DNA from: an uncultured Bacteroidota bacterium
GTDB taxonomy: Bacteria; Bacteroidota; Bacteroidia; B-17B0; Aurantibacillaceae
Length of the DNA stretch: 64,000 nt
Direction: 5' to 3'
Assembly: GCA_937873155.1 (NCBI GenBank)
Contig: CALMVZ010000026.1
Coordinates: 124,001 to 188,000, forward strand
The translations under genes were made by a program, and so were the position numbers. The first letter of the stretch is position 1. The number at the start of each line of letters is the position of its first letter. A model generated the notes under the pieces. The model was given only the letters and a program-made list of their open reading frames with translations, was not told where the DNA came from and ran no database searches. Shown in pieces: positions 29,048-51,324 of this stretch.

Positions 29048-31477
29048 TTAATTGATTGATTTTAATTTAAGCCACAAACTATTACTTACAACGCTTACAG
29101 AACTTAAAGCCATTGCTGCGCCTGCGATCATCGGATTTAATATAAAGCCGTTAACCGGGTACAAAATTCCCGCTGCTATTGGAATACCAATGATATTATA
29201 AATAAAAGCCCAAAAAAGATTTTGTTTAATTGCTTTTACAGTGAGTTTGGATAGTTTTATTGCTTCCGGTATCAACATTAAATCGGAAGAGATGATCGTC
29301 ATCTTAGCGACATCGATCGCAATGTCCGATCCTTTTCCCATTGCAATACTTACGTCCGATTGAGCTAAAGCCTGAGAATCATTAATGCCATCACCAACCA
29401 TCGCAACAACTTTTCCCTGCTTTTGAAGTTCCTTAATAAAGTCAGACTTTTGAGAAGGCAGTACTTCTGCTTTAAAATGTTTTAATCCTACCTGCTTAGC
29501 CACTGCGTTAGCCGTTTGAGCATTATCTCCGGTTAACATGTACACATCTATTCCATCCTTTTGTAGCTGACTTATTGCTTTTGCCGAACTTGGTTTCACT
29601 TTATCTGCAATGGCAGCGATAATCAAAATGTGTTTAGCATCTGAAAAATAAACAACTGTTTTTGCCTCTTCTTCCAAAGCATTTGCTCTTGTTTGTTCGG
29701 ACGTACCAATCAGAATATTATTTTCATTCATCAACCCTTTATTGCCAACATAATAAGTTTGACCATTGAAATTGGCTTTGACTCCTCTTCCGGTAATACT
29801 CTCAATATTGTTTATTTGAACAGGATCTATTTTCTCATTCTTTAATCGCTTGCTTACAGCTTCAGCAAGGGGATGTTCTGATTGGGATTCAATAGCTAAT
29901 AAGATTCGCTTTGCATTATTACTATCAGTTTGATCAAGAATTATCATGTCAGTTACTTCAGGTTTGCCTTCCGTAATAGTGCCTGTTTTGTCTAAGATAA
30001 TTGCATTAACATTTTTAGCCAATTCAAGGCTTTCGGCATCCTTAATTAAAATACCATGATCAGCACCTTTACCAACGCCGACCATAATGGCAGTTGGAGT
30101 CGCCAAACCTAAAGCACAAGGACATGCAATTACTAATACTGTTACCATTGAAAGTAAGCCTTGCGTTAACCCATTTTCTCCGCCAAGAATAATCCATAAA
30201 ATAAAACTGAGAACTGAAATGCCAATAACAATTGGCACAAAAACACCTGCAATTTTATCTACAAGTTTCTGTACCGGAGCCTTACTTCCTTGTGCTTCTT
30301 GCACCATTTTTATTATTTGTGCCAATACGGTTGCACCGCCAACTTTAAGCGCTTTGATCTTAAAACTTCCTTTTTGGTTTATAGTCCCGGCAAATACTTT
30401 ATCTCCATTCTTTTTTTCGACCGGAATAGGCTCACCGCTAATCATGCTTTCATCCACAAAAGAAGTTCCGTCAGACACTTGTCCGTCTACGGGAATTTTA
30501 TCGCCCGGTTTTACAAGTAGTAAGTCTCCAATTTTAACATGAGCAATTGGCATTTCCATTTCATGGCCTCCTTCATGAATTACTACAACCGTTTTTGGCT
30601 GAAGTCCGATTAGTTTTTTTATGGCAGAGGAGGTATTGGATTTGGCTTTTTCTTCCAGTAATTTCCCCAATAATATGAAGGCTACAACTACTGAAGCGGC
30701 CTCAAAGTAAACATGAGCATGCAAGCCCCTTTTGTGCCAAAATTCAGGATAAAATGTATTAAAGAGACTGAACAAGAATGCGATCCCTGTGCTTAATGCA
30801 ACCAAAGTATCCATGTTGGCCTTAAAATGTTTAGCTTGTTTAAAAGCATTGATAAAGAAACTCCTTCCGAACCAAAAAAGAACCGGAGTAGTCAATATCA
30901 TCATAATGAGATTGGCATAAGGCATTTCCATAAAGAACATACCTATGACAACAACAGGCAACGAAAGTATTACAGCCCAAATGGTTTTATTCCTTAATTC
31001 AGTATAAAGGCTTTTATGAATTTCTTCTTTTAGATCATGAGCATTCTCTTCATCGATTATCATATCATAACCGATGGATTGCAAAGCTTCCTTCATTTGC
31101 TGCATACTGATCAAATCAGGAATAAACTCAACTGTTGCGCTTGAGTTAGCAAAATTCACCGCCGCGTTGATCACACCGTGTTGGGATTTTAAAATTGATT
31201 CGGTACTAACAGCACAGGATGCGCATGTCATTCCTGTGATTGGAAAGGTTTTCTTTATACTTTCAACACCGTAACCCAGATCTCTGATAGTCTTAATAGC
31301 TTCATTTAGAATAGGCTTTTTGGGATCAGCTTCAATAATAGCCTTTTTGTTATTAAAATCTACCCGATGTTTAATAACACCTTCCAATTTCGATAATCCA
31401 CCATCAATAATCATGGCGCAATGTTCGCTGTCCATGCCGATAAGTGGAATTTCAATTGTTTGTTTTAAGGTTTCCAT
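29048..31477 (-). CDS. copA: Cu(I)-exporting P1B-type ATPase
   Basis: 809 aa. Two N-terminal HMA domains: the first degenerate ([15 protein letters not shown], only one Cys) and the second intact ([11 protein letters not shown]). Then eight membrane helices with [15 protein letters not shown] (CPC site), phosphorylation loop [23 protein letters not shown] (SEHP) and [13 protein letters not shown]7/8 carry [15 protein letters not shown] and [16 protein letters not shown], the Cu+ selectivity pattern of CopA. First gene of a seven-gene minus operon for Cu/Ag efflux. Confidence 0.93.
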
Positions 31478-35557: not shown

Positions 35558-35566
35558 AGCTTATTC

Positions 35567-35805: not shown

Positions 35806-35852
35806 ATTACTACACCTTTTAGTATTGCGATTATGTTGGAATAAAAACTTTG

Positions 35853-36413
35853 TTAAAGCTCTTCGATTTTTTTACGTTTATTATCCTTCAATGATTTAAA
35901 AAAGGACGGCGTTAAGCCAGTAACTTTTTTAAATTGACTGGAGAGGTAGGCGACACTGCTGTAATTTAATTTATCGGCTATTTCAGACAGAGAAAGCTCA
36001 TCATACACCAATAATTCTTTTACTTTTTCAATACGTTGTGAGATAAAATATTTTTCTATGGTGGTGCTTTCCGTTTCTGAAAACAGGTTGCTAAGATAAT
36101 TGTAATCATAACCTAATTTTTTAGAAAGGTAATCAGATAAGTTTACTTTTAGTTCCTCGTCAGAATGATGCACCAATTCGATCACGACATTTTTTATTTT
36201 CTCAATGACCTGAGTTTTTTTATCATCAATCACCTCAAAGCCTACCTGCTTTAAGTCTGACTTAAGTGCATCCAATTTTCCGGAAGAGATCTCATTTTTA
36301 GTAGTTGCTTCCCCCAATTCAAGATGAAGTAGCGTAACACCGTGTTTTTCAAAAAGCGATGTTACTACCATTATACAACGATTACAAACCATATTTCTTA
36401 TTGCATACTTCAT
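35853..36413 (-). CDS. HMA-AraC fusion transcriptional regulator
   Basis: 186 aa. Residues 1-65 form a shortened HMA-like domain with MVCNRCIMVV (C-x2-C) and VGFEVIDDK; residues ~85-180 form an AraC DNA-binding domain with two HTHs (LSEIADKLNYSSVAYLSSQFKKVTG). The metal-binding module directly joined to the DNA-binding module suggests a one-component Cu(I) sensor. It is co-transcribed with the copper operon. Characterised AraC proteins usually sense sugars or small molecules; metal sensing is inferred. Confidence 0.8.
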   Translation of the reverse strand: MKYAIRNMVCNRCIMVVTSLFEKHGVTLLHLELGEATTKNEISSGKLDALKSDLKQVGFEVIDDKKTQVIEKIKNVVIELVHHSDEELKVNLSDYLSKKLGYDYNYLSNLFSETESTTIEKYFISQRIEKVKELLVYDELSLSEIADKLNYSSVAYLSSQFKKVTGLTPSFFKSLKDNKRKKIEEL

Positions 36414-36417
36414 AAGT

Positions 36418-37344
36418 TTACAGAAAAAAGTAATATTGAATGTTTAATAAATACGAAGGATATTTCCTGATGTAAGATCTATTGACGAATGGAATAGCAG
36501 TTGAGCAATCAATTCTTAAATTGGATTTTACAATGAATTGAATTGCCGGACGAAACTCCATATAATTACCAGCTTTGAATTCATTAGAATTGGTGAGCGA
36601 TACCGGTTTACCGTCCTTTAAAACATCTAACCTGCCGTACGATCTGCCAAGGAATTCTGCATAAAGATTAATGTTGGTTTGCTGATAATTTTTGTATTTA
36701 AAGGGATAAACCAAATAACCAAATGATAAACTGTAGTTATAGGCGTTTCCATATCGGAGACTTACTCCATTGGTTCCTTTATAGTCGAACGGCTTTATGA
36801 TTCCGCCGGTTAAAGAGACCGCAAGTTTTTTTATAAGTACAGTAGAAATAATTCCTCCGCCAACAGCTTTGGTATCTCCCATAAGTGAAACTTCCGCTTC
36901 ATCATGTGGAAGCTCTGTGTAAGCGCCGTTCCCGTACAAAGCCATTCTGAAATGTTTATGATCGCCATCTTTATTTATAAAGCGGTAACGAAAGCCAAGG
37001 TTTACAGATTCAAAAGCATAATTATAGTTTCCCGTTGCTGAACTCTGATTCACATAGTCAGTTTGAGTGCTGTCTTTTTGAATAAAATCATTTGGTAAAA
37101 CTTTGTTATGGTGATTGGAAGTAGTTACCATTGCATTGAACATTAGCTTAGAACTAACAGCATACATGAACATAGCCCCATGCCAGGAACGAAAATTGTT
37201 CCTGTTCATATACCCTTCGTTCATTAATCGGATTCCAAGAGCGTTTTTAGGAACAATGCTCGCGGGCTCAGAATTAGGATATAATTCCTGAGCCCGAGTT
37301 GCGGATTGAGCAAGCAGTGCAACTAATAAGAACAGTTTTTTCAT
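36418..37344 (-). CDS. outer-membrane beta-barrel protein
   Basis: 308 aa, signal peptide MKKLFLLVALLAQSATRA. The mature part has alternating amphipathic strands, many aromatic girdles (YNYSLSFGYLVYPF) and terminal aromatic LLNIQYYFFL, the signature of an integral outer-membrane barrel. Met/His-rich surface segments (ALGIRLMNEGYMNRN, MVTTSNHHNK) are consistent with copper contact. Overlaps the HMA gene by 4 nt. Probably provides copper passage or sensing at the outer membrane. Confidence 0.65.
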   Translation of the reverse strand: MKKLFLLVALLAQSATRAQELYPNSEPASIVPKNALGIRLMNEGYMNRNNFRSWHGAMFMYAVSSKLMFNAMVTTSNHHNKVLPNDFIQKDSTQTDYVNQSSATGNYNYAFESVNLGFRYRFINKDGDHKHFRMALYGNGAYTELPHDEAEVSLMGDTKAVGGGIISTVLIKKLAVSLTGGIIKPFDYKGTNGVSLRYGNAYNYSLSFGYLVYPFKYKNYQQTNINLYAEFLGRSYGRLDVLKDGKPVSLTNSNEFKAGNYMEFRPAIQFIVKSNLRIDCSTAIPFVNRSYIRKYPSYLLNIQYYFFL

Positions 37345-37886
37345 ATCGTAACGTGATAGATGCGTTTAGTAGATGAAGCGGGACAACACTTATCAGGTTT
37401 GCCTGTCTTAATACACTTCATAGAAGTTAAACCGGCGTACTTCTTATATTCTTTCGATGAGGTCAAACCTTTGTCAACGAATTTCAGAGAAACTGCATTA
37501 TCCAATTTCTGATCGGAGACATTAACAAAATGGTAGGTGTTGCCTTCAAACTCATAATGATAATCTTTGCTTATTGACGTACCGGAAAATTTAAACTCGG
37601 CAGACAATTCACCTACAGAGAATCCGGCACCTTCAATTTTATTTTTGATGTCATCAATGATGACTTTCTCACCTTGCTTAAAGGTCAAATTAAAGATAGC
37701 ATTCTCTAGATCCACATCAATCTTTTCAATAAAACTTAAAGACGATAAAGCTTTATGAACCGAGTTGGAGCACATACTGCATGTAATTCCTGTTACTTTA
37801 ACTTTTGCGCCAACAAAGTTGGCGAAGGATACGGTGCTAATACACACAAATAGAACTGACAGAATTGTTTTTGTTATTGTTTTCAT
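37341..37886 (-). CDS. exported HMA-domain protein
   Basis: 181 aa. Signal peptide (ILSVLFVCISTVSFA), HMA domain with GITCSMCSNSVHKAL (residues ~30-95) and a C-terminal domain ending KCIKTGKPDKCCPASS, adding three more Cys. A periplasmic copper carrier is likely; the second half is of unknown fold. Together with the barrel and regulator it forms the tail of the copper operon. Confidence 0.75.
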   Translation of the reverse strand: MKTITKTILSVLFVCISTVSFANFVGAKVKVTGITCSMCSNSVHKALSSLSFIEKIDVDLENAIFNLTFKQGEKVIIDDIKNKIEGAGFSVGELSAEFKFSGTSISKDYHYEFEGNTYHFVNVSDQKLDNAVSLKFVDKGLTSSKEYKKYAGLTSMKCIKTGKPDKCCPASSTKRIYHVTI

Positions 37887-37905
37887 GGTACTTGTTTTAT
37901 TTTTT

Positions 37906-37987
37906 AATGATGCAGGAGTCCTTAAACCAAAATAACTGCTATGAGGGAGTTAATCAGAAGAAGGGTTCTCCGCGCATCATTGGTTTA
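37906..37987 (-). repeat. overlapping inverted repeats between MbnP-like and exported HMA genes
   Basis: AATGATGC (37906-37913) pairs with GCATCATT (37974-37981), and TTAAACCAA (37922-37930) with TTGGTTTA (37980-37987). They overlap and are mutually exclusive, so could form alternative RNA structures in the 105-nt gap. An 8-codon frame (MMRGEPFF) starts inside. Confidence 0.4.
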
Positions 37988-37991
37988 TATA

Positions 37992-38798
37992 TTAATTTTT
38001 AATTAAACTAAGTGTAAACATATCTTTATAATTATTCGCGATTAACTGTCCCGGGCCCAGACTCATCATAACCGGGTCTGTAGAAAAATTAATAGCAGTT
38101 GGTGTTTTAAAAGCTTCCAGGATATCTGTTTTAATGTATATATCTGAAACATGGTCACCAACAACGACTAAGTTTGGGGCTGTAAGTGATAAAGTGAATG
38201 TTCGGATATTATTATATGGATTCTGAAATCCCCCGATATCATACTGAATGTTATGAACTGTATTTGCAGGAGCGCTTGAACTATATCCCTCAAGCTTGAA
38301 GAATATATAGCCTTGGCTCCAAGTCCAAAACATATTATGAATCGGATCGAGTGGACCTGTTTGCGCACCGGAAACATTCCTTAAACTATCCACTCCAACA
38401 GAAAATTCAAGCTGTATGTAATTACCCAGGGGTACATTTTTGAGAGAAAATTTGCAGGTGTTGGAACTGTCTGCCGCATCAACGAGATGGTAACTATATG
38501 TATCATACGGCTCGCTAAAATAAGAACCATCGCTTTTTTTCAATCTTATCGCAGATATATAATACTTTAAAAATGATACAGAGAAAGTATCATTATTCGC
38601 ATTAAGATATTTTGGGGTTGAGCCCACATAAACGCTGTCTTTAGAGAGGCTTACAACTGTGTTTCCGGCCATGTTAGTGAAATTGATGCGCACATCATTT
38701 TGCGTAACCGGTGCCGGTTCTTCAGTCGGGTTAGTGTCTGTTTCCTTCTTGCAGGATAAACAGATCAGGAATGGGATTATCAATAAAATTTTTTTCAT
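37992..38798 (-). CDS. MbnP-like copper-binding lipoprotein
   Basis: 268 aa from ATG 38798, lipobox IPFLICLSCKKE. The MbnP-type signature GPLDPIHNMFWTWSQGYIFF is present with the Trp residues that in MbnP/MopE-type proteins are modified for copper binding. VRINFTNMAG and YLNANNDTFSVSFLKYYISAI fit the family. MbnP proteins are partners of methanobactin or MbnH; no MbnH is adjacent. Directly follows the HMA lipoprotein with a 1-nt gap. Confidence 0.75.
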   Translation of the reverse strand: MKKILLIIPFLICLSCKKETDTNPTEEPAPVTQNDVRINFTNMAGNTVVSLSKDSVYVGSTPKYLNANNDTFSVSFLKYYISAIRLKKSDGSYFSEPYDTYSYHLVDAADSSNTCKFSLKNVPLGNYIQLEFSVGVDSLRNVSGAQTGPLDPIHNMFWTWSQGYIFFKLEGYSSSAPANTVHNIQYDIGGFQNPYNNIRTFTLSLTAPNLVVVGDHVSDIYIKTDILEAFKTPTAINFSTDPVMMSLGPGQLIANNYKDMFTLSLIKN

Positions 38799-38799
38799 G

Positions 38800-39201
38800 T
38801 TATTTTTTTCGTTCATATTGACAACATTCGTGCAGGTTTGAATAGGTTGAATCAGCGCTCTTGTATTTTTGGGTATCATAACCGGTCGCGGAAATTTTCT
38901 TATGAATTTCATCAAGCGTTATGAGTGTACTATCATAAGACACTTCCATTATTTTAGTGTCGCTATTCCAATCCGCTTCTTTTACACCATTTACTTTAAG
39001 AGAAGCTTCTATTTTATCTTCACACATGCCACAATTACCCCAAACCTTAAATGTTGATGTAGAAATACCATCCACAACAGAAGTTTTAGTCTCTACCACT
39101 TCCTGATCGTTGTGGTCACCGCAGCTTATAACTGTGATAAAGACTAATAAAAAAAGGATCTGACAAAGCTCTGCCATTGATATTTTTCTGATAATTTTCA
39201 T
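38800..39201 (-). CDS. HMA-domain lipoprotein
   Basis: 133 aa: signal with lipobox (FLLVFITVISCGDH), then an HMA domain carrying WGNCGMCEDKIEAS (C-x2-C) and ending SATGYDTQKYK; a terminal ECCQYERKK adds two Cys. An anchored periplasmic copper acceptor, likely partner of the MbnP-like protein encoded next. An alternative start at Met-9 is possible; the chosen ATG gives a more basic signal-peptide N-region. Confidence 0.75.
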   Translation of the reverse strand: MKIIRKISMAELCQILFLLVFITVISCGDHNDQEVVETKTSVVDGISTSTFKVWGNCGMCEDKIEASLKVNGVKEADWNSDTKIMEVSYDSTLITLDEIHKKISATGYDTQKYKSADSTYSNLHECCQYERKK

Positions 39202-39206
39202 TTAAC

Positions 39207-40271
39207 CTAGTTTTTAATTATCTTTTTATAAGTTGTCCCTTCAACCATTTCAATTCTCAAAACATACTGGCCGGAAGGAAGAGCTGTTATATCAAAGGTT
39301 TCGAATAACACAGGTATAATATATCTTTTAGTTTTAACTGTAGCACCCATCATATTTATTAAATCTACAGCCTTAATCTTCCCACCTTTAATATTTAGAA
39401 AATCATAAGCTGGCACAGGGAAAACAATTGGATTGGTGCTTTTTGTGTGCTCAAGAATACCAACAGACGACTCAAGAAGAATAGTTGTGTCCTTTGCAGC
39501 AATTCCGCATTCATTATTCATAAATAAATTTATATAATAGACAGCGGTAGAATCAGGATATACGTTGGTTGCTACTGTTACCCCACTTATACTGTTGCCG
39601 TCTCCGAAACTCCAGTTAATGTTACTTAATGGAATAGGCGGATAAACAAGTCCTATAGTAACTGTATTACCAGTGACAGTCATAGTAAAGCTTGGATTAG
39701 CGCCTGTTACATCTAAATGAATTGTTGCGGTGCTGCTGTCCACGACGGCACCCTTCCGGGCTTTTAGTTTAACCTGATAGAAACCAGTGTCACCATACAT
39801 ATGAACAGGGATAGGATCTGAAGAGTTATTCCCATCACCAAAGTCCCAATAAAATTGATCCGCACAAGTTGACATATTTATAAGCTGATTTGAACATTCT
39901 TCAAATTCAAAAATAGCTTTGGTAGTATTATTAATAGTAAGGGTTCTTGATATGGAAGTTAAGTGGCCATTGTCAGAATACAATGTTAGTTCATAAAGCC
40001 CTGGATTATTAAAAGCGTAGGCGTAGTTTGTTGTCGTTGCAGAATCTATTGATTGTATAGAATTTAGAGTGGTATCAACTGTGCTTAACATCCATTTATA
40101 GGTAACGCCACCACGCGTTTGATTTATGAACGTAGCCGTATCTCCTAAGCATAAATCAAACGCAGAAAACTGTGGATATGGTGCCGCATGCATAACTTTT
40201 TCTGTTTGTGACAATGCAAACAGTGAAGTACAAACGTAAAAGATGATCAATATGTGTCGTCTTAAGTTCAA
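39207..40271 (-). CDS. PKD-domain surface protein with T9SS sorting domain
   Basis: 354 aa starting at TTG 40271 (1 nt after the MCO stop). Signal peptide (ILIIFYVCTSLFALSQ), two PKD domains (residues ~110-190 and ~190-270 with FYWDFGDGNNSSD and INWSFGDGNSISG) and a final type A sorting domain (NPIVFPVPAYDFLNIKGG onward). Probably a secreted scaffold that holds the multicopper oxidase or binds other surface partners. Confidence 0.75.
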   Translation of the reverse strand: MNLRRHILIIFYVCTSLFALSQTEKVMHAAPYPQFSAFDLCLGDTATFINQTRGGVTYKWMLSTVDTTLNSIQSIDSATTTNYAYAFNNPGLYELTLYSDNGHLTSISRTLTINNTTKAIFEFEECSNQLINMSTCADQFYWDFGDGNNSSDPIPVHMYGDTGFYQVKLKARKGAVVDSSTATIHLDVTGANPSFTMTVTGNTVTIGLVYPPIPLSNINWSFGDGNSISGVTVATNVYPDSTAVYYINLFMNNECGIAAKDTTILLESSVGILEHTKSTNPIVFPVPAYDFLNIKGGKIKAVDLINMMGATVKTKRYIIPVLFETFDITALPSGQYVLRIEMVEGTTYKKIIKN

Positions 40272-40272
40272 T

Positions 40273-42009
40273 TTAGTTCTTTAGAAATTTTATGGTTAAT
40301 AAGTCCTTACCTGATCTAATTCTTGCGATATATAAACCATCATTCAGGCCGCTTATATTTATTGAGAATGTTTCAGATGAAATATTTTTACGTGTAAAAA
40401 CGGTTTGGCTCAAGGCATTTAAAATATCTACACTTTCAATAAAAGAATTTGGGTCTTTTATTTGAAATGTAATCTTATCTGCAGAAGGATTTGGGAATGC
40501 TTTAACTAACGATAGATCCTTAGTGTTCTCTTTGATACCAATAGAATTTGGATCCTGCACAAGAAAAGTGCCCATCATACCATCATCTTCATGATGCAAT
40601 AAATGACAATGGTACATATACGGCACAAAATTATCGGCGAAAGTTGTAAACTTAGTGATGAAGCGAACAGAATCCCCAGGTTGAACAAGAATAACATCTT
40701 TTAACCCCTGATATTGCGGTGGGGGTGGCATACCGTTAATGTCGAGTACAAAAAATTCAATGTCGTGAATATGGAAAGGATGCGCGACAAGAGTTTTGTT
40801 ATAGAGTGTCCATACCTCTGTATTATTCAACAATGTTTTAATATTTATTGAATCCATATTGAATGGTGTATTGTTCATAAAGAAAGGACCGTCAACTTTA
40901 CCTTGTTGTCCGCTGGTAACAGTATCCGCAGTAAAAACTATCCGGCGTTTCGCATCGGCATTAACTTCCAGCAAAGGAACCTTAGGTGCAAATGTTGTAG
41001 GAATAGTTGTTATAGGATTTACTGTTTGCGCTACAACATCAAATCGAAGTATATTAAAATTTAATCCATTAAGCGGATTACTATAATAACCTTCCATCAT
41101 AGGATAAGCGGCCGTGCCAACAGTATCCGCACCAATAATTCCATACGGAAGTTCAGCGGCATAACTCATTAAATAAACTTGCTGTCCAATAGTATAATTA
41201 TTAAAGTCAACAAGGATCTCTGCACGCTCACCAGTAGATAAACGAACTCTATTTGTTTGGTAAGGTTGTGAAAGTAAGCCACCATCACTCGCTATAAGAT
41301 GAAAATTAGAATTATCAGACAGTCCAAAGTAATAGGTTCTATCAGAGGAAGCGTTTAATAAACGTAAACGTACCACTTGCTTAGGCACCTGTAGGTACGG
41401 ATTCATTGTTCCGTTTACCATTACAATGCTGTCTTCATGTGTTGCAGTAGTGAATTGATAGAAAGCATCAAAAACTCTTGTTTGTACGATGAGAGGAAAA
41501 TCATCTACTTTATAACGTCTTGGCAAGGTGTATGTTTTTTCAATATTATCACGCACGATGATCATCCCGGCTAAACCTCTTGTGATCTGTATTTCTGTTT
41601 TTCCTTCGCCGTGAGGATGATACCAAAACGTTGCCGCTTCATTACGCATCTTAAATGAAGGGCTCCATGTTCCACCACTTGCCGCAATGATCTGGTGAGG
41701 GCCGCCATCATTCATAGGCGCAACATGAAAACCATGCCAGTGAACCGTTGTTGGCTGCGTCAGAAAATTCTTCACGTTAAGTGTAATACTGTCGCCGTTA
41801 TTTATCAGCAATGTTGGTCCAAGAAAATTGCCGTTATAACCATAAGTAGGCGTATTATTCGTGCCAATAAACTGCTTTGTACCGGATTGTACGTTCAAAC
41901 TAAAAGATGTTCCGCTTAAAGTATCAGGAATATAAAGCGGATTTTGCCCAACAGTGATAAGACTGAGAACTGTACAGAAGAGAGCTAGTTTTGTTTTAAA
42001 ATCTTTCAT
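40273..42009 (-). CDS. T9SS-exported multicopper oxidase
   Basis: 578 aa, three cupredoxin domains with all copper motifs: HWHGFH and FWYHPHGEG (domain 1), HPFHIHDIEFF and YMYHCHLLHHEDDGMMG (domain 3; T1 Cys-His-Met and T2/T3 His). Signal peptide at the start; a T9SS sorting domain at the end (LVKAFPNPSADKITFQIK onward). Candidate function is CueO-like Cu(I) oxidation at the cell surface, making copper less toxic. Other laccase-like substrates cannot be excluded. Center of the operon. Confidence 0.85.
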   Translation of the reverse strand: MKDFKTKLALFCTVLSLITVGQNPLYIPDTLSGTSFSLNVQSGTKQFIGTNNTPTYGYNGNFLGPTLLINNGDSITLNVKNFLTQPTTVHWHGFHVAPMNDGGPHQIIAASGGTWSPSFKMRNEAATFWYHPHGEGKTEIQITRGLAGMIIVRDNIEKTYTLPRRYKVDDFPLIVQTRVFDAFYQFTTATHEDSIVMVNGTMNPYLQVPKQVVRLRLLNASSDRTYYFGLSDNSNFHLIASDGGLLSQPYQTNRVRLSTGERAEILVDFNNYTIGQQVYLMSYAAELPYGIIGADTVGTAAYPMMEGYYSNPLNGLNFNILRFDVVAQTVNPITTIPTTFAPKVPLLEVNADAKRRIVFTADTVTSGQQGKVDGPFFMNNTPFNMDSINIKTLLNNTEVWTLYNKTLVAHPFHIHDIEFFVLDINGMPPPPQYQGLKDVILVQPGDSVRFITKFTTFADNFVPYMYHCHLLHHEDDGMMGTFLVQDPNSIGIKENTKDLSLVKAFPNPSADKITFQIKDPNSFIESVDILNALSQTVFTRKNISSETFSINISGLNDGLYIARIRSGKDLLTIKFLKN

Positions 42010-42022
42010 GATCAGTTTTCAG

Positions 42023-42817
42023 TTAGTGAACGATACTTAATTTCTGATTTGTAACAGATCCATTAGCCGTTATCTTTACTACATAATTTCCTGCAGGCAG
42101 CGCCTGAGTATTAAATGTTTTAGAGAAGTTGCCGACTGGGACTTTATCAGAAAAAAGATTTGAAATAATGCGGCCTGTGATATCCAAAATCTCGATAACC
42201 ATTGATGAGGTTTCTTTTAACACAAGTTTTACATTTAATTCTGCCGATGCAGGATTAGGAAAAACATTCAGCTCAGAAATTTTATTTGCATTTTCTTTAA
42301 TACCAACCTGGGAATTTAGAAAGGTTCTGATGTCGGCCGCCATTGTTGTTGTATCGCTTGGACTAAATCCCTGATAAGGTGATCCAAGCAATTGATGAGT
42401 TGCTCCGCCGGCAATTACAATTGTAGGCATTCCCATACCTCCATAATATGCTACCTGAACAGCACCTGAATCCATTGGTATAGCAGAAAAGCCATTTGAT
42501 GTTACAAAGTTTTTAGTCTGTGCGCAGGAATAACTATTAGTATAAGCGATCATGTAAAATTTGATCTGGCCCGGATACTGAGAAAGTAAATTGGCTTTCA
42601 TTGCTTCCAAAACAGTTCCTGCGGCAGGACAAGGAGCACAGCTCAACATAAAGTATTCGATTATTACTGCTTTGCCGGAATTAAGATCGCCGAACAAATT
42701 CTGCATATTGCCATCGCAATCTTTACGGTTAAAATCCATCGCGGTGGTTTGCGCGGTTGAAGCGAATGAGAATATTGTCAGTAAGGCAATAATCAAATGA
42801 TAGGTTTTTGTTTTCAT
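42023..42817 (-). CDS. secreted thioredoxin-like protein with T9SS sorting domain
   Basis: 264 aa, signal peptide then a thioredoxin/TlpA-like fold (residues ~30-165) with FMLSCAPCPAAG (C-x2-C), cis-Pro region YYGGMGMPTIVIAGG and a terminal type A sorting domain (ELNVFPNPASAELNVKL). May reduce disulfides or bind copper for the multicopper oxidase. A cuproprotein-maturation (Sco-like) role would need an extra His that I do not see in the expected place. Confidence 0.7.
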   Translation of the reverse strand: MKTKTYHLIIALLTIFSFASTAQTTAMDFNRKDCDGNMQNLFGDLNSGKAVIIEYFMLSCAPCPAAGTVLEAMKANLLSQYPGQIKFYMIAYTNSYSCAQTKNFVTSNGFSAIPMDSGAVQVAYYGGMGMPTIVIAGGATHQLLGSPYQGFSPSDTTTMAADIRTFLNSQVGIKENANKISELNVFPNPASAELNVKLVLKETSSMVIEILDITGRIISNLFSDKVPVGNFSKTFNTQALPAGNYVVKITANGSVTNQKLSIVH

Positions 42818-42842
42818 TGTTTTTTTAGTTTAAGTCTAATAG

Positions 42843-43727
42843 TTAATTTACAAGTACTTTTTTAGTTACGGCACGGTTGTCAATTTGCATTTGTATTAAA
42901 TAGGTGCCTTCCGCCAAGTTGTTTCCCATAGAAATTTTTTGCTTTTGTTTTCCTGACAATTTTGTGGTCGGGCCTTTATAAATGATCTTACCAAGGTTAT
43001 CAAATGCATTAAGTTGTACCTGGCGATCACCTTTAAGGTCGTAGCTCACTAAAATTTCTTTTGAATCCCTATCATAGAATAGATTCAAATCATATTCGTC
43101 GGCTATCTCTTTTACAGAAGCAAATACTTTAGGATGGATCTGGAAAGTGTGAAGAAAGATCTTATCTCCTGTATTCTGACCATTATTATTAGTGCAATTG
43201 GTCGCATACCAGAACGTGATATTTCCTTCATTTGTTGGTGGCGCAGTCCAATTGAATGACCACTGCGAATAATTAAAAGAAAGGCTTGGAGTTCCTGCGG
43301 CCTTATGTGTCATAGAATAGCGCAAATCGGTTCCAATGGCATGAGTAATTATTTGCGTTCTTACAGGATCAGTTACTGTAAATTGCCCGACATTCAAACT
43401 ATCCTTATCCTTTAACGCCCCCAATTCAAATCCGAACTTAACATTAGGCGGTGATGAACCGGTAACCTTTACGGTTATGGAATACGTTTGTCCAGGAATA
43501 TAAGAAGAGTCAACGCTTGAAAAAGTAAGAGTATTATTATTTACAGCGCTGTAAGTAATTGATGCCGTTGTGTGGCAACCTGACTGGGCACAAGTTAAAT
43601 CCAGTGGAGCACCAGTACTACCAGGATGTGAGCCCGAGGTTTTTTTATAGACAGTATAACTGGCTAAAAGAAATACACTAACAAAAGCGCACAAAAGAAT
43701 TATTGATTTTTTATTTCTCATGATCAA
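42843..43727 (-). CDS. Reeler/choice-of-anchor V protein with T9SS sorting domain
   Basis: 294 aa. Membrane/signal segment (IILLCAFVSVFLLASYTVY), a choice-of-anchor V (Reelin-like) domain with TGAPLDLTCAQSGCHTTASI and a sorting domain at the end (LNLFYDRDSKEILVSYD on). The CAQSGCH motif is C-x4-CH, a variant of CxxCH, so covalent heme attachment is possible but unproven. Its neighbour at 43724 shares the domain but not the sorting tail. Confidence 0.7.
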   Translation of the reverse strand: MIMRNKKSIILLCAFVSVFLLASYTVYKKTSGSHPGSTGAPLDLTCAQSGCHTTASITYSAVNNNTLTFSSVDSSYIPGQTYSITVKVTGSSPPNVKFGFELGALKDKDSLNVGQFTVTDPVRTQIITHAIGTDLRYSMTHKAAGTPSLSFNYSQWSFNWTAPPTNEGNITFWYATNCTNNNGQNTGDKIFLHTFQIHPKVFASVKEIADEYDLNLFYDRDSKEILVSYDLKGDRQVQLNAFDNLGKIIYKGPTTKLSGKQKQKISMGNNLAEGTYLIQMQIDNRAVTKKVLVN

Positions 43728-44314
43728 AGGTTTTTATTGTTAATTGTGAAACTTTTGGTGTACACTTTATCTCCTTTATCCGACATGTCATCGTTGGCAG
43801 ATACAGCTCCTACATAGAAAGTAATTGGCTTTTTCGCTTCTTTAGGTGCTGTCCAGTTTACTATCCATTCACCCTCACCGGTTTTTACCGCATCTGTACC
43901 ATTAAAAGTATATGTCACATATTTTCGATCCTGAAGTTTGTAAGCGTTCTTAACGATCTGCGTTCTGACCGAATCAGTGATTTGAAAAGTTCCCTGCTCG
44001 GTGCTGTTTTTAGATTCAAGCGCCAGGATCTGAAATCCGAATCGTGTAACATTTGGATCGCTGATCTTTACTTTAACAGGATATGTATGACCCGGAACAA
44101 ATGCTGTTTCATTATTTCCAAATGTAAGTTCCACTTTAGCAGTACCTGAATTGATCTTACCGTCATCATGGCAACCTGATGTTGCACATGTTTCTTCGCC
44201 AGGCGCTCCGGTATGCGATGCCGGTGCTCCGGAGCTTGACTTTTTAATTGTGGCCGCTATTACGAGAAATGCGCAAAGCAATAAGCCAACTGATGTGATA
44301 ATTTTCTTTCTCAT
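43724..44314 (-). CDS. Reeler/choice-of-anchor V protein without sorting domain
   Basis: 196 aa, signal peptide MRKKIITSVGLLLCAFLVIA, then the same domain as the downstream paralogue: TGAPGEETCATSGCHDDGKI (C-x4-CH), VTRFGFQILALESKNS, VRTQIVKNAY and GEWIVNWTAPKE. Overlaps the downstream gene by 4 nt. Lacking T9SS tail, it should stay in the periplasm or outer membrane. Role unknown, perhaps electron transfer or copper contact with the oxidase. Confidence 0.65.
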   Translation of the reverse strand: MRKKIITSVGLLLCAFLVIAATIKKSSSGAPASHTGAPGEETCATSGCHDDGKINSGTAKVELTFGNNETAFVPGHTYPVKVKISDPNVTRFGFQILALESKNSTEQGTFQITDSVRTQIVKNAYKLQDRKYVTYTFNGTDAVKTGEGEWIVNWTAPKEAKKPITFYVGAVSANDDMSDKGDKVYTKSFTINNKNL

Positions 44315-44403
44315 GATAAATGAAATTAATTTATATAAATAAGTACAAAAAAGTACAGCCCATGCCTGCGAAACGCAAGTGGGTTAAAGGAGAAAACCAG
44401 AAA

Positions 44404-44790
44404 TCAAATCAAGAGCACCTTATGCTTAAGGTAGAGAGGATCGTCATATAAGACGGGTGGGTCGTGATCAGTTTCTTTAAATAAAGAATTATCGGGGCCC
44501 AAAGGTATTTGTAATTCAGGTTGAATGACTTCAGCGCACTGAATTTTGTTTTGCGTTAATTTAACTGCACCGAAAGAATGATGATCGTCTTTTACTTTGA
44601 AGAATGAAGATTCGTTTTTACAGCATCCGCCGCTTTCTTCTTCCTCCGAACCACAGCAACCTTCCTCATCATTTACTGTATAAAAAGCAAATTTTTTAAC
44701 GTGATCGCCGCAGTAATGCAAATTCAGAAACACACCTGATGCAACGAACAGATAAAAGACTGCGAGTGATATGGTTACAACTTTCTTCAA
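44404..44790 (-). CDS. small Cys/Met/His-rich exported protein
   Basis: 128 aa if started at TTG 44790 (signal peptide KKVVTISLAVFYLFVASGVF); a TTG at 44835 is an alternative. The mature part has LHYCGDHVKKF, a cluster EEGCCGSEEEESGGCCKNE and a His/Asp stretch DDHHSF. Such HYC-type proteins head copper operons in Bacteroidota and are presumed metal binders, though unstudied. First gene of the operon. Confidence 0.6.
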   Translation of the reverse strand: MKKVVTISLAVFYLFVASGVFLNLHYCGDHVKKFAFYTVNDEEGCCGSEEEESGGCCKNESSFFKVKDDHHSFGAVKLTQNKIQCAEVIQPELQIPLGPDNSLFKETDHDPPVLYDDPLYLKHKVLLI

Positions 44791-44801
44791 ATTGCTTTGA
44801 G

Positions 44802-44816
44802 TTGCGTAAGACGCAA
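44802..44816. promoter_or_regulatory. palindrome near start of copper operon
   Basis: TTGCGTAAGACGCAA: 6-bp arms around a 3-nt centre, 12 nt before the preferred start codon of the Cys-rich gene. A related TGCG-AAA-CGCA occurs at 44367-44377 in the next intergenic gap. Candidate operator of the HMA-AraC regulator, unproven. Confidence 0.4.
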
Positions 44817-44835
44817 TATAAGGATTTTTAATCAA

Positions 44836-44951
44836 AATAGAGTAGATAATTTAGAAATCTATAGCTTTTGTGTCTATAAAGTTGAAATTATTGAAACAAT
44901 TGAAATGATCATCAATAAAATCAATATAATATTTCAGATTTAGCTTCATAA
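44836..44951. other. spacer between copper operon and island repeat
   Basis: No gene. A minus-strand TATTTTG (-7-like, one base short) at 44834-44840 may drive the copper operon. Confidence 0.35.
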
Positions 44952-45352: not shown

Positions 45353-45357
45353 TAGGG

Positions 45358-45756
45358 TTGAAAAAGCTAGTAGCCATATTCTTTTTACTTCAATTCTTAA
45401 CGAACAATGCGTTCGCCGAAGAGTTAATTAAACTACCTAAACTTTTCACACACTACTATCATCACTCGCACGAGCATCACGACACCGATGATTTTGCTGA
45501 TTTTTTAGCTGATCATTATACAGACAATCATAAAGAAGATAAACACGACGATCAGGATGGTGATTGCGAATTACCTTTCAAACATTGCGATGGTTGCTGC
45601 TTAACCACTCACTCACCTATTATTGCTTCAGTTCCTTCATTCGATGGAAATAATTTTGTTGTTGAAATAACATCTAGCAACAGTTATGTTTCCGAAAACG
45701 AGAAAATAAAAAGTATCTGTTCTCCTCCTATCTGGCAACCGCCAAAAATTAGCTAA
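45358..45756 (+). CDS. exported His/Asp-rich metal-binding protein
   Basis: 132 aa, signal peptide LVAIFFLLQFLTNNAFA. A long His/Asp/Tyr-rich segment (HYYHHSHEHHDTDDFADF; KEDKHDDQDGDCELP) and Cys motif KHCDGCCLTTH follow. Proteins of this kind precede CzcCBA loci in Bacteroidota; it likely captures Zn/Co/Cd in the periplasm. Start codon is TTG at 45358. Confidence 0.65.
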   Translation: MKKLVAIFFLLQFLTNNAFAEELIKLPKLFTHYYHHSHEHHDTDDFADFLADHYTDNHKEDKHDDQDGDCELPFKHCDGCCLTTHSPIIASVPSFDGNNFVVEITSSNSYVSENEKIKSICSPPIWQPPKIS

Positions 45757-45843: not shown

Positions 45844-48800
45844 ATGCTCAACAAAATAATTGCGTTCTCTATAAAGAACAAACTCATCATAGGGCTTTTC
45901 ATTTTAGCCCTCATTGGTTACGGCAGTTACCAAATAACAAAATTGCCAATTGATGCCGTGCCTGATATTACCGATAATCAAGTACAGGTAATAACTTCTG
46001 CGCCCTCACTCGGTGCACCCGATGTTGAACGGCTCATTACGTTTCCAATTGAACAAGCTAATAGCAACATACCGGGGCTAAAAGAAATTCGCAGTTTCTC
46101 TCGTTTCGGTTTATCATTAATTACAATTGTTTTTAATGATGATGTAGATGTGTATTGGGCAAGGCAACAAGTAACCGAGCGTTTAAAATCGGCACAAGAA
46201 CAAATCCCAAAAGGACTTGGCTCTCCAATGTTAGCTCCTGTAACAACAGGACTTGGCGAAATTTATCAGTACGTCCTTCGTGCTAAACATGGTTACGAAA
46301 CAAAATACGATGCAACCGAACTACGTACTATTCAAGATTGGATCGTTCGCCGACAGTTATTAGGCGTTAAAGGTGTTGCAGACGTTAGCAGTTTTGGCGG
46401 AAAACTTAAACAGTATGAAATTGCCATTGATGCCAACAAACTAAAATCATTCAACATTAACATTAATGATGTGTTTACTGCTCTAGAAAAAAACAATGAA
46501 AACACAGGCGGAGCGTACATTGAGAAAAAATCTACCGTGTTGTATATCCGAAGCGAAGGACTAATTCAAAATACAGAAGATATTAAAAACATTGTTGTAA
46601 AAAATACCGAGAATGGTACACCGCTCTTAATTAACGATGTAGCTGATGTAAGAATTGGAAAAGCTATTCGCTACGGCGCTATGACATATAATGACGAAGG
46701 CGAAGCAGCGGGCGCAGTTGTAATGATGTTGAAAGGTGGAAACAGCAACGAAGTAATTAAAAATGTAAAAGAACGAATTAAACAAATTGAAAAAACGTTA
46801 CCAAAGGGTGTAGAAATTGAACCTTTCCTCGATAGAACAAAAATGGTAAACAGCGCCATTGGTACAGTAACAAAAAATTTATTAGAAGGTGCGCTAATTG
46901 TAATTCTCATATTGGTTCTATTTCTTGGCAATCTTCGCGCTGGTGTAATCGTTGCTTCGGTAATTCCTTTATCAATGTTATTCGCAGTAATTATGATGAA
47001 CATTTTTGGTGTTAGTGGAAATTTAATGAGCATGGGTGCATTAGATTTTGGATTGATTGTTGACGGTGCGGTAATTATTGTTGAAGCATGTATGTTTCAA
47101 TTATACATTTCAAAGCAACAAAACGTATCTCAATTACAAATGGATGATATTGTTTACAACACTTCAACACGCATGAGAAACGCAGCCGTATTTGGCGAAT
47201 TAATTATCCTCGCTGTGTATTTGCCCATCTTTACTTTAGAAGGTATTGAAGGAAAAATGTTTAAACCAATGGCACAAACCGTTGCCTTTGCTCTTTTAGG
47301 CGCATTTATTCTTTCCCTTACTTATATTCCAATGATGAGTGCTTTGTTTTTAAGCAAGCTTACAACCCACAAAAAGAATATCTCAGATAGAATGATGAGC
47401 GTTTTAGAAAACATTCATCAAAAATATCTGCTTAAAGTATTAAACATTCCTAAAACAATAATAAGTTCGGTAATAATACTGTTTGTAATAGCTCTATTCA
47501 TCTTCTCTTCGTTAGGCGGAGAATTTATTCCCGAATTACCCGAAGGCGATTTTGCAGTTGAAACAAGAGTATTAACGGGAAGCAATATTAACACAACAGT
47601 TGATGCTTGTCTTAAAGCGGCGCACATATTAAAACTAAAATTTCCTGAAATTGAAAAGGTGATTGGTAAAGCAGGAAGTGGAGAAATTCCAACTGATCCT
47701 ATGCCAATGGAAGCGGCTGATTTAATGATAATTCTAAAGGATAAAAGCGAGTGGACATCAGCCGATACTTGGGATGAACTCTCAGAAAAAATGTCAGAAG
47801 CATTGCAAGATGTGCCAGGAGTAACGTATAGTTTCCAGTATCCAGTAGCAATGCGTTTCAACGAATTAATGACAGGCGCAAAGCAAGATGTGGTTTGTAA
47901 AATATTTGGAGAGAATTTAGATACTCTTTCAAAATATTCAAAACTTTTAGGCGACGTATCCTCTAAAATTGATGGCGCGGAAGGAATTTACGTTGAACCT
48001 GTTGACGGACTTCCGCAAGTCATCATTAATTACAAGCGCAACATTATAGCTCAATACGGCTTAAATATTTCCGACATAAACAGAGTTGTAAATACAGCTT
48101 TTGCAGGTCAAAGCAGCGGTTTGGTTTTTGAAGATGAAAGACGCTTTGACTTGGTTGTGCGTTTGGCAGGAGAAAACAGAAAAGAATTAGAAGACGTACA
48201 AAACATTTTAATTCCAACTCCAAAAGGAACCCAAATTCCATTGTATCAGGTTGCCGACGTTTCTATTCAGGAAAGCGTAAATCAAATCCAAAGAGATGAT
48301 GCTAAACGCAGAATTATTGTTGGCTTTAATGTTCGCGGTCGCGATGTTCAAAGTATTGTGAACGACTTGCAAACTCAAATTGATAAACAAATAAAATTGC
48401 CTACAGGGTATTTCATTACCTACGGCGGTGCGTTTGAAAATCTTATCGCAGCTAAAAAACGGTTGTCAATAGCAGTACCAATTTCCTTGCTCATTATTTT
48501 CTTCTTACTCTACTTTGCTTTCAATTCAGTTAAACACGGTTTACTTATTTATTCAGCAATTCCGCTTTCAGCTATTGGTGGTGTTTTCTTTTTAGCATTA
48601 AGAGGAATGCCGTTTAGTATTAGTGCGGGTATTGGCTTTATTGCCTTGTTCGGAGTAGCAGTTTTAAACGGTATTGTCCTAATTTCAGAATACAATCGAA
48701 TTAAAGCAGCCGGCCAAACCGATCTTAAAGCAATTGCTTTAGAAGGTACAAAGCATCGTTTACGACCTGTATTAATGACAGCTTTCGTAGCTTCGCTCGG

Positions 48801-50181
48801 TTTTTTACCAATGGCTATAAGTTCAGGCGCAGGCTCAGAAGTTCAAAGACCTTTAGCAACCGTAGTGATTGGTGGACTATTAATTGCAACTTTCCTTACG
48901 CTTTTTGTGTTGCCTATCCTTTATATTTTATTTGAGAAAGGATGTAAAAATAAAGCAAAAGTGGCAGTTGCCCCAACAATTCTACTTCTATTTGTCTTTT
49001 CATTTCAAAGTGTAAATGCACAACAAAGCATTTCTTTGAATGCAGCGATCGACACCGCTTTCAAAAATAACTTAACAGTAAAAAACGAAAAGCTTAATGC
49101 CGAATATCAAAAGAAATTAAAAGCGGCTGCCGTTGATATTCCGTTAACAAATGTAACGGGCGAGTACGGTCAAATAAACTCCGCGTATAAAGACACCAAG
49201 TTTGGAATTTCGCAGAACATTAGTTTTCCAACCGTTTATGCAAAACAAAAATCATTGCAGAATGGGAACTACAAAAGCAGTGTTTTAAACATTGCCGTAA
49301 AAGAAGCGGAACTTAAAAAGCAAGTGAGCGATGTATTTTACTTACTCGTTTATTTGCAGCAAAAACAAAACATTCTTTTGCGCAACGATAGTGTTTATGC
49401 TTCATTCTTAGAAAAGGCTAATCTCCGTTTCAGTAAAGGCGAAAGCAATATCTTAGAAAAAACAACAGCCGAAACGCAACGAGGGCAAATTGCTATTCAG
49501 CTAAACCAAGTAAAAAACGACATTGAAATATTGCAATTGCAATTTCAATTGTTACTTAATACAGTAATGCTATACATGCCTTCTGCTGATAAACTGAAAA
49601 TGGAATTCAACTCCTCGCTCGATAATTCAACGCTCGTAAATCATCCCCAATTAAAAGTGTTGCAGCAACAAAAAAACAGTTCGGTAATAAACACGCAGTT
49701 GGAAAGATCCAAGCTCTTGCCAAGCCTTTACTTTGGTTACAGTAATCAAAGCATTCAGGGTATTGGTGCTGATAATTTGCTTTACACTAAAGCCAACCGC
49801 TTTAATGCAGTGCAACTTGGTGTTGGCTTGCCTTTATTCTTTGGTTCGCAGAAAGCAAAAGTAACCTCGAGTAAAATACTTGAATTAATCTCGGAGAACA
49901 ATTATCAGTTAGGCATAAAGGCGTTTAATAACGAGTATCAAACCGCATTTATACAATACAAAACTCAATTACTGGCAGTAAAATATTTTGAGGACACAGG
50001 TTTACAAAATGCAATTACTATAACTAAAACAGCTAACCAGCAATTTAGTAATGGCGATATAAATTACTTGGAATGGGTAATGCTAATTAACAATGCAATC
50101 TCAATTCAAAGCAGTTACGCCGATGCTGTAAAGGAACTAAATCAAACAATCATTCAACTTAATTATTTAACAACTAAATAA
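45844..50181 (+). CDS. czcA: CzcA-type HME-RND pump fused to a CzcC/TolC-type outer membrane factor
   Basis: 1445 aa. Residues 1-~1040 form an RND pump (IDAVPDITDNQVQV; TM4 ALDFGLIVDGAVIIVE, the DFG-x2-VDGA motif of divalent-cation HME-RND pumps; FIALFGVAVLNGIVLI). Next is an internal signal-peptide-like stretch (PTILLLFVFSFQSVNAQQ, predicted cut near residue 1059/1060), followed by a complete OEP-type channel to the end. Fusions of this order are known in Bacteroidota. Either one chain spans both membranes after internal cleavage or the parts stay joined. Exports Co/Zn/Cd-like ions with CzcB. Confidence 0.9.
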   Translation: MLNKIIAFSIKNKLIIGLFILALIGYGSYQITKLPIDAVPDITDNQVQVITSAPSLGAPDVERLITFPIEQANSNIPGLKEIRSFSRFGLSLITIVFNDDVDVYWARQQVTERLKSAQEQIPKGLGSPMLAPVTTGLGEIYQYVLRAKHGYETKYDATELRTIQDWIVRRQLLGVKGVADVSSFGGKLKQYEIAIDANKLKSFNININDVFTALEKNNENTGGAYIEKKSTVLYIRSEGLIQNTEDIKNIVVKNTENGTPLLINDVADVRIGKAIRYGAMTYNDEGEAAGAVVMMLKGGNSNEVIKNVKERIKQIEKTLPKGVEIEPFLDRTKMVNSAIGTVTKNLLEGALIVILILVLFLGNLRAGVIVASVIPLSMLFAVIMMNIFGVSGNLMSMGALDFGLIVDGAVIIVEACMFQLYISKQQNVSQLQMDDIVYNTSTRMRNAAVFGELIILAVYLPIFTLEGIEGKMFKPMAQTVAFALLGAFILSLTYIPMMSALFLSKLTTHKKNISDRMMSVLENIHQKYLLKVLNIPKTIISSVIILFVIALFIFSSLGGEFIPELPEGDFAVETRVLTGSNINTTVDACLKAAHILKLKFPEIEKVIGKAGSGEIPTDPMPMEAADLMIILKDKSEWTSADTWDELSEKMSEALQDVPGVTYSFQYPVAMRFNELMTGAKQDVVCKIFGENLDTLSKYSKLLGDVSSKIDGAEGIYVEPVDGLPQVIINYKRNIIAQYGLNISDINRVVNTAFAGQSSGLVFEDERRFDLVVRLAGENRKELEDVQNILIPTPKGTQIPLYQVADVSIQESVNQIQRDDAKRRIIVGFNVRGRDVQSIVNDLQTQIDKQIKLPTGYFITYGGAFENLIAAKKRLSIAVPISLLIIFFLLYFAFNSVKHGLLIYSAIPLSAIGGVFFLALRGMPFSISAGIGFIALFGVAVLNGIVLISEYNRIKAAGQTDLKAIALEGTKHRLRPVLMTAFVASLGFLPMAISSGAGSEVQRPLATVVIGGLLIATFLTLFVLPILYILFEKGCKNKAKVAVAPTILLLFVFSFQSVNAQQSISLNAAIDTAFKNNLTVKNEKLNAEYQKKLKAAAVDIPLTNVTGEYGQINSAYKDTKFGISQNISFPTVYAKQKSLQNGNYKSSVLNIAVKEAELKKQVSDVFYLLVYLQQKQNILLRNDSVYASFLEKANLRFSKGESNILEKTTAETQRGQIAIQLNQVKNDIEILQLQFQLLLNTVMLYMPSADKLKMEFNSSLDNSTLVNHPQLKVLQQQKNSSVINTQLERSKLLPSLYFGYSNQSIQGIGADNLLYTKANRFNAVQLGVGLPLFFGSQKAKVTSSKILELISENNYQLGIKAFNNEYQTAFIQYKTQLLAVKYFEDTGLQNAITITKTANQQFSNGDINYLEWVMLINNAISIQSSYADAVKELNQTIIQLNYLTTK

Positions 50182-50187: not shown

Positions 50188-51324
50188 ATGAAAAAATATA
50201 TCATAATTGCATTAGTATTTGTTCTTCTCACATCCTGCGGAAGCAAAGAGGTTAAAGCTGTTATCGAAGAGATCGCAAACGAAAACTTGGTTGAACTAAC
50301 CGACGCGCAGCTTAAAAATTCAGAAATTAAAACAGGAAAGGTTGAGCAGCGCAATATTTCCTCCATACTAAAAGTAAACGGTAAAATAGAAGTCCCTCCT
50401 CAAAACATGGTTTCGGTTAGCGTTCCAATGGGTGGTTATTTAAAATCAACAAAACTTTTAGAGGGTATGCATATTACCAAAGGAGAAGTAATAGCTACTA
50501 TGGAGGACCAACAGTATATACAATTACAACAGGACTATTTAACTGCAAAAGCACATTTTACTTCCATTGAGGCAGAATATAATCGTCAAAAAGAATTGAA
50601 CCTAAGCAAAGCCAGCAGCGATAAAGTCTTTCAGGCAGCTCAAACGGATTATCTTTCACAAAAAATTTTAATAAAGTCTTTATCGGAAAAACTAAAACTT
50701 ATAGGAATAGTTCCTGATAATTTAAACGAAAACAACATTTCAAAAAGCATCAATATATATTCCCCGATTGATGGTTTTGTTTCACAGGTTAAAATGAATA
50801 TTGGAAAGTACGCAATGCCAAGCGATGTGCTTTTTGAATTGGTAAATCCCGCCGATATTCATTTGGCATTAACTGTTTTTGAAAAGGATTTGTACAAACT
50901 TTCCGTTGGCCAAAAAATATTTGCTTACAACAATATGCAGCCTCACATAAAATATATATGCGAGGTACTTCTAATTAGCAAAGATGTTTCGCCTGAAGGC
51001 GCGGTTCTGGTTCATTGCCACTTTGAACAGTACGACAAAAGCTTGATCCCCGGAATGTATATGAACGCCGAAGTAGAAGTTTCAACAAACAATGCTTTTG
51101 TAATTCCAAACGATGGTTTAGTTCGTTTTGAAGGAAAGCAATATGTTTTCACTCAAGTCGATAAAAATAAATATCAAATGCAAGAAGTAACCACCGAAAA
51201 CAATGAGAACGGATATACTCAAATCATCTTTGCCGATAGCACTGATGTTAGAAACAAATCTTTTGTAATTAAAGGAGCTTACACGCTTTTAATGAAAATG
51301 AAGAATACGGAGGAGGAAGAATAG
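50188..51324 (+). CDS. czcB: CzcB-like RND periplasmic adaptor
   Basis: 378 aa lipoprotein (ALVFVLLTSCGSKE). Membrane fusion layout: VSVSVPMGGYLKSTKLLEGM (first sandwich half), helical hairpin (~110-180), NIYSPIDGFVSQVKMNIGKY (second half), beta-barrel and a C-terminal domain (TQVDKNKYQMQEVTTENN). No HMBD domain, unlike the Cus adaptors. Follows the pump-channel fusion by 6 nt and completes a three-component efflux system in two genes. Confidence 0.85.
   Translation: MKKYIIIALVFVLLTSCGSKEVKAVIEEIANENLVELTDAQLKNSEIKTGKVEQRNISSILKVNGKIEVPPQNMVSVSVPMGGYLKSTKLLEGMHITKGEVIATMEDQQYIQLQQDYLTAKAHFTSIEAEYNRQKELNLSKASSDKVFQAAQTDYLSQKILIKSLSEKLKLIGIVPDNLNENNISKSINIYSPIDGFVSQVKMNIGKYAMPSDVLFELVNPADIHLALTVFEKDLYKLSVGQKIFAYNNMQPHIKYICEVLLISKDVSPEGAVLVHCHFEQYDKSLIPGMYMNAEVEVSTNNAFVIPNDGLVRFEGKQYVFTQVDKNKYQMQEVTTENNENGYTQIIFADSTDVRNKSFVIKGAYTLLMKMKNTEEEE

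Follow-up and report, generated by a model that had tools for sequence, protein, structure and literature searches.

This study concerns a window of 64,000 nucleotides (the whole stretch of DNA that was analysed) from contig CALMVZ010000026.1 of an uncultured Bacteroidota bacterium, and within it a cluster of eleven co-directional genes on the minus strand, running from 44835 to 35853. The cluster is a putative operon and, judging from gene order, appears to join two recurring units. The surface module consists of a small exported protein of the HYC_CC_PP family (HYC), two choice-of-anchor V/Reeler proteins (chV1 and chV2), a thioredoxin-like (Trx-like) protein and a multicopper oxidase (MCO), and the metal module consists of an HMA lipoprotein, an MbnP-family protein, an exported HMA protein (HMAe), an outer-membrane channel and an HMA-like AraC regulator. 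This arrangement is best read as copper handling at the outer surface. More specifically, a copper-responsive envelope operon in which an oxidase module exported by the type IX secretion system (T9SS) is joined to a periplasmic/outer-membrane metal module has, in our judgement, an even chance of being the right description.

Conserved gene order and copper context

To follow the gene order, relatives of the MCO were gathered from whole genomes and a GTDB contig set, and their neighbours were annotated with iterated profiles; the counts given here refer to 89 distinct MCO loci, 56 of them well-flanked. Gene-order conservation had been proposed as a check in the initial annotation, and it was observed: a Trx-like gene lies within four genes upstream of the MCO gene on the same strand at 67 of the 89 loci. 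In an evenly drawn set of 247 genomes from the class, 45 of which contain the MCO, 20 of the best 24 Trx-like matches (E 1e-31 or better, window included, counted from result tables) stand next to a T9SS MCO encoded on the same strand. A HYC gene is contiguous upstream, on the same strand and within four genes of the MCO at 42/89 loci, and another protein of about 230 residues, mostly T9SS-tailed, stands directly upstream of the MCO at 26/89. The T9SS tail itself is kept in 84/89 MCOs and 74/79 Trx-like partners.

The full chV1-chV2-Trx-MCO block was found at six distinct loci (the window, L037, L058, L059, L061 and L213), whose MCOs, at 62-65% identity, rank among the nearest relatives. The nearest MCO relative of all (L057, 74%) has the Trx-MCO pair without Reeler genes, and we therefore regard the Reeler genes as an addition gained or lost within this group. 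Comparison of the loci showed that the PKD protein is not a conserved member of the module. A T9SS protein of about 487 residues with a CDCC motif (L058:11733-13196), which has no Pfam domain besides the tail, is often located 3′ of the MCO. The genome of the window also encodes an MCO paralogue (L040, G000:C2:46035-47723), and the same neighbourhood is kept around its counterpart in G002 (L044).

Copper-type genes (HMA-AraC, CopA, CusA, CusB and HMA proteins) were present within 10 kb of 34 of the 56 well-flanked MCO loci and of 1 of 20 control stretches (Fisher p 1.2e-5), the controls being hand-picked at arbitrary positions, mostly in genomes that yielded MCO loci. In the barrel-anchored loci examined, the HMAe gene directly precedes the barrel gene, and this pair is a second unit that also exists alone elsewhere; in L210 and L225 it has CopA nearby, and in L222, L223 and L228 MbnP genes run divergently from it. 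A second AraC-HMAe-barrel set is found in the same genome as the window (L209, G000:C34), with a 73% identical barrel and a CopA gene directly after it. Cultured bacteria with a HYC-Trx-MCO-AraC-CopA locus include Flavipsychrobacter stenotrophus (L123) and Taibaiella chishuiensis (L089).

Cluster layout, secretion tails and flanking genes

The open reading frame (ORF) list and the reading of each junction placed all eleven genes where the initial annotation had them, no gap being longer than 105 bp, and Pfam and NCBIfam domain scans bore out their identities (Table 1). The scans identified the MCO, the PKD protein, the two HMA proteins, MbnP, HYC_CC_PP, choice-of-anchor V and the AraC-type helix-turn-helix; the exported outer-membrane barrel protein gave no family match in them. 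The inventory of eleven genes thus stood, but three things had been overlooked in it: the Reeler proteins carry a haem-c-type motif, Cus-type genes lie divergently, and a CopA-type gene is present.

HYC is separated from chV1 by 89 bp, and chV1 and chV2 overlap by 4 bp. From chV2 onward, the spacing is 25 bp to the Trx-like gene, 13 bp to the MCO, 1 bp to the PKD gene, 5 bp to the HMA lipoprotein and 1 bp to MbnP; in the 3′ half, 105 bp lie between MbnP and HMAe, HMAe and the barrel overlap by 4 bp, and 4 bp separate the barrel from the AraC gene. The MbnP start was placed near 38798, one base past the stop of the HMA lipoprotein gene, and a longer ORF to 38915 was set aside because it overlaps that gene. 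A sigma-70 scan gave no excess over shuffled sequences, and the Bacteroidota promoter pattern gave no useful match.

Four of the eleven products (chV2, Trx-like, MCO and PKD proteins) carry a T9SS tail at the C-terminus, as had been noted at the outset. The Trx-like, MCO and PKD tails pass PF18962 and chV2 passes TIGR04183 narrowly (24.4 against a cut-off of 23), so that all four score as type A sorting domains by curated cut-offs. The same genome encodes the T9SS translocon protein SprA (SprA_N match of 538 bits), and the four tailed products are predicted to reach the cell surface. By itself the number of tails is weak evidence, because the genome has at least 150 of them (150 of 261 candidate places received a score in the search, all of them above cut-off); the idea that four tails in eleven genes are improbable in themselves was rejected for this reason. 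What goes beyond chance is the conserved gene order.

Table 1. Genes of the cluster and of its copper-related surroundings in the window.
Feature	Position	Strand	Evidence
HYC_CC_PP family small Cys/His-rich exported protein	44404..44835	-	NCBIfam NF047658 45.5 bits
chV1, choice-of-anchor V/Reeler, CX4CH, without T9SS tail	43724..44314	-	NF041895 92.6 bits; PF02014 24.1 bits
chV2, second choice-of-anchor V, CX4CH and T9SS tail	42843..43727	-	NF041895 86 bits; TIGR04183 24.4 bits
Thioredoxin-like protein with T9SS tail	42023..42817	-	PF18962 50 bits; weak thioredoxin matches
Multicopper oxidase with T9SS tail	40273..42009	-	PF07732, PF07731 and PF00394 above cut-off; PF18962 41.3 bits
PKD-domain protein with T9SS tail	39207..40271	-	PF18911 63.2 bits; PF18962 34.3 bits
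HMA lipoprotein, CxxC and C-terminal CC	38800..39201	-	PF00403 44.7 bits
MbnP-family lipoprotein, corrected start	37992..38798	-	PF20243 168.6 bits
Exported HMA protein (HMAe), TCSMC motif	37341..37886	-	PF00403 38.2 bits
12-stranded outer-membrane barrel, COG4313/FapF-like channel fold	36418..37344	-	AlphaFold2 model and structure matches
AraC-type regulator, HMA-like CxxC N-terminal domain	35853..36413	-	PF12833 55.3 bits
His/Cys-rich small exported protein, divergent, before Cus-type genes	45358..45756	+	ORF
CusA-type RND pump fused to outer-membrane efflux protein	45844..50181	+	PF00873 935 bits and PF02321 83 bits in one ORF
CusB-type membrane fusion protein	50188..51324	+	PF16576 80.9 bits
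CopA-type P1B ATPase, two HMA domains	29048..31477	-	PF00122, PF00702 and two PF00403 stretches
Small HMA protein beside CopA-type gene	28821-29033		ORF

Among the flanking genes, the CusA-type pump and a TolC/CusC-type efflux domain form a single ORF of 1445 residues. The divergent intergenic region (44836-45357) contains a strong minus-strand terminator-like hairpin (45021-44991) and an apparent gene remnant. At the other end, the gap after the AraC gene (35558-35852) contains a short minus-strand ORF (MIHIKYSTIKACKRCKLQLEQC...) that resembles a truncated copy of the CxxC N-terminal domain of the AraC regulator; an ArsR regulator gene, 295 bp downstream of the AraC gene, adjoins a Ca2+-type P-type ATPase gene just 3′ of the cluster (32565-35557, minus strand).

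Features of the encoded proteins

The window MCO contains all T1 and T2/T3 ligand motifs (HWHG, HPH, HPFHIH and HCHxxxHxxxxM), and the His, Cys and Met copper ligands are conserved across the 89 loci. Its nearest solved structures are CueO-type, and its score of 342 bits is below the NCBIfam CueO equivalog threshold of 525 bits. The Cu(I) substrate site of CueO, Asp439/Met441, aligns with Thr and Val in the window protein; across the family, the first position holds Thr or Ser and the second, for the most part, Ile or Val. No Met-rich insert was found in the window MCO, which has 3 Met in a 102-residue linker. A few MCO relatives have Met-rich linkers, and linker Met content was rejected as a separator of copper-context MCOs from the others, as it shows no correlation with that context. 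Cu(I) is thus far only a candidate substrate of this enzyme.

The AlphaFold2 model of chV1 (predicted local distance difference test, pLDDT, 91.8) matches the Reeler fold of F-spondin with an E value of 1.9e-7. Both chV1 and chV2 carry CX4CH, a CxxCH-like haem attachment motif, and C-Xn-CH (n usually 4 or 2) was observed in the N-terminal segment of 55 of 64 Reeler homologues, the remainder including truncated or mis-started ORFs. In an alignment of 40 sequences, C43, C48 and H49 of chV1 are invariant, and no invariant second axial ligand (distal His or Met) was found. The motif is typical of haem c attachment and suggests that these proteins may bind haem. Many choice-of-anchor V homologues in the class genomes have CxxCH or CX4CH (L172-L188 and others), and some are 550-940 residues long, forming a widespread family of possible Reeler cytochromes. 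In 77 homologues of the Trx-like protein, Cys60 and Cys63 (CxxC) and Cys34 are invariant, Cys98 is conserved at 98%, Met130, which precedes a cis-Pro-type proline, at 98%, and Met57 at 96%; from these residues, the protein is predicted to be a thioredoxin capable of holding Cu(I). The HxC, C, CC and PP positions of the HYC_CC_PP family are near-invariant.

In the metal module, C57, C60, C126 and C127 of the HMA lipoprotein are invariant. The MbnP-family protein has a WxW motif with invariant W159 and a conserved lipobox Cys; it scored 40 of the 140 bits required by the TIGR04052 equivalog, and a PDB search with it gave no match. No MbnH-type di-haem peroxidase gene stands next to it, the CCP_MauG genes of the genome being only on C3, C11 and C38; a separate MbnP gene adjoins a CCP_MauG (MbnH-like) gene at G000:C3:1426-2699 (L235, L237). 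The barrel was modelled with 12 strands (pLDDT 91.0), and the model matches FapF (E 6.6e-9) and a COG4313 channel (E 1.2e-6). The N-terminal MxCxxC of the AraC regulator (C10, C13) is invariant in 29 homologues. This domain has no HMA Pfam match; when compared with the HMA profile it showed weak similarity over the full length, with the CxxC aligned, and it showed none to control families.

Proposed function, alternatives and known systems

From gene order, T9SS tails, MCO copper sites, haem-c-type motifs, the Cys/Met-rich Trx-like family, the HMA-like AraC regulator and the flanking Cus- and CopA-type genes, the following course of events may be envisaged. The AraC protein would sense copper via its CxxC and induce the genes. 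The HMA and MbnP lipoproteins would be the copper binders of the periplasm or outer membrane, close to the outer-membrane channel, while the Trx-like protein could hold Cu(I) or keep thiols reduced and so load or protect the MCO. On the outer face, the MCO would oxidise Cu(I), or another reductant, with O2, so that copper is less toxic before it enters; should the Reeler proteins bear haem c, they might pass electrons to the MCO, and CopA and Cus would export the remaining copper. Induction by copper, location at the surface, the use of Cu(I) as substrate, the transfer of copper, and haem and electron flow are the steps we infer. In its most far-reaching form, the proposal would be a first-line copper defence of Bacteroidota on the outer surface, in which T9SS MCO, Cys/Met metallo-thioredoxin and Reeler c-type cytochromes act as an extracellular Cu(I)/electron relay under a copper-sensing HMA-AraC; we consider this form doubtful.

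Several observations weigh against the copper reading. The Asp/Met pair of the CueO Cu(I) site and the Met-rich insert are missing, and linker Met content does not follow copper context. About 40% of the well-flanked MCO loci have no copper neighbour, and the MCO paralogue of the same genome, a T9SS protein with 48% identity, has no copper genes nearby. Haem-type Reeler proteins are not copper-specific, choice-of-anchor V homologues occurring in 165/247 class genomes. The regions upstream of 57 AraC/MCO/CopA/barrel operons yielded no operator motif common to them and nothing beyond an A-rich start-site signal, and the transcript may be broken at the two gaps of some 90-105 bp.

The main rival, a possible but tentative one, gives the surface MCO a different substrate (phenols, Mn, Fe or some other reductant); its copper would come from the HMA, MbnP and Trx-like proteins, and the export genes would be general neighbours. 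The lack of CueO substrate-copper residues and the many T9SS MCO loci without copper genes are consistent with it, and Trx-like and HMA proteins would suit copper insertion; however, export-type genes (CopA, CusAB) and the HMA-like AraC are strongly enriched near the MCO. It is also conceivable, though we think it unlikely, that the cluster is not one system and that a surface redox module lies beside a separate copper module (HMAe-barrel-AraC, HMA lipoprotein and MbnP), perhaps transcribed apart. The 89-bp gap after HYC, the 105-bp gap before HMAe, the occurrence of HMAe-barrel(-AraC) alone at L209 and L222-L228, and the close MCO relatives L057 and L058 without copper genes argue for such a division. 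Yet no more than 25 bp separates any two neighbours from chV1 to MbnP, so that the MCO gene and those for metal-binding proteins sit together in a tight run; no clear terminator was found inside the eleven-gene run, and at L121 and L103 the MCO module is likewise combined with HMAe-barrel-AraC. A module for extracellular electron transfer or oxidative stress, centred on the haem-type Reeler proteins and with the copper genes as a side association, would agree with the invariant C-Xn-CH of that family, but Reeler genes are near only about 10 of the 89 MCO loci and the Trx-MCO pair is conserved without them, and we regard this explanation as very improbable.

Returning to copper handling at the surface, as the initial annotation had suggested, the copper context, the conserved T9SS targeting and SprA speak for it, whereas its copper-oxidation part is not supported by the residues at the CueO site. 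If the reading is right, copper detoxification or capture would start outside the outer membrane in many Bacteroidota, through a system known for secreting adhesins and hydrolases. The reading would also suggest functions for HYC_CC_PP, haem-type choice-of-anchor V, the T9SS Trx-like family, the HMA-barrel pair and the HMA-like AraC regulator, all families without an assigned function.

In a literature search that left most subscription journals outside, no paper was found on a T9SS multicopper oxidase or on this operon, and nothing relevant to HMA-AraC regulators of copper or to Reeler cytochromes in bacteria. Like CueO and the Cue/Cus systems, the window MCO has the MCO fold with all copper ligands and adjoins CopA- and Cus-type genes. 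It differs in carrying a T9SS tail and a Sec-type signal, CueO being a Tat-exported periplasmic enzyme, and in lacking the Met-rich insert and equivalents of Asp439/Met441; the regulator, an HMA-like AraC, differs as well. The outer surface had been described as a compartment not used by known Cue/Cus systems, and for these that holds, but methanotrophs have MopE (PMC3423442) and CorA (PMC3912023), which bind copper at the cell surface and are partnered by di-haem peroxidases (PMC3621798, PMC3912023, PMC3423442). MbnP and MbnH are a known partner pair (PMC3621798); the window has an MbnP-family protein with the WxW Trp but no MbnH in the cluster. For the methanotroph MopE/CorA/MbnP systems neither a T9SS link nor an MCO has been described, and the window neighbours point to copper excess rather than copper starvation. 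The Reeler proteins match NF041895 and share the predicted fold of F-spondin Reeler domains, but they are bacterial, partly T9SS-exported and equipped with an N-terminal C-Xn-CH haem-c-type motif. The barrel has 12 strands like the COG4313/FapF channels, with a fold match at a template modelling (TM) score of about 0.6, but identity is only 10-12% and it is paired with an HMA protein. We regard the cluster as a variant of known copper-handling systems, in which the invariant C-Xn-CH of the Reeler proteins, the invariant extra cysteines of the Trx-like protein and the resemblance of the barrel to COG4313/FapF are new.

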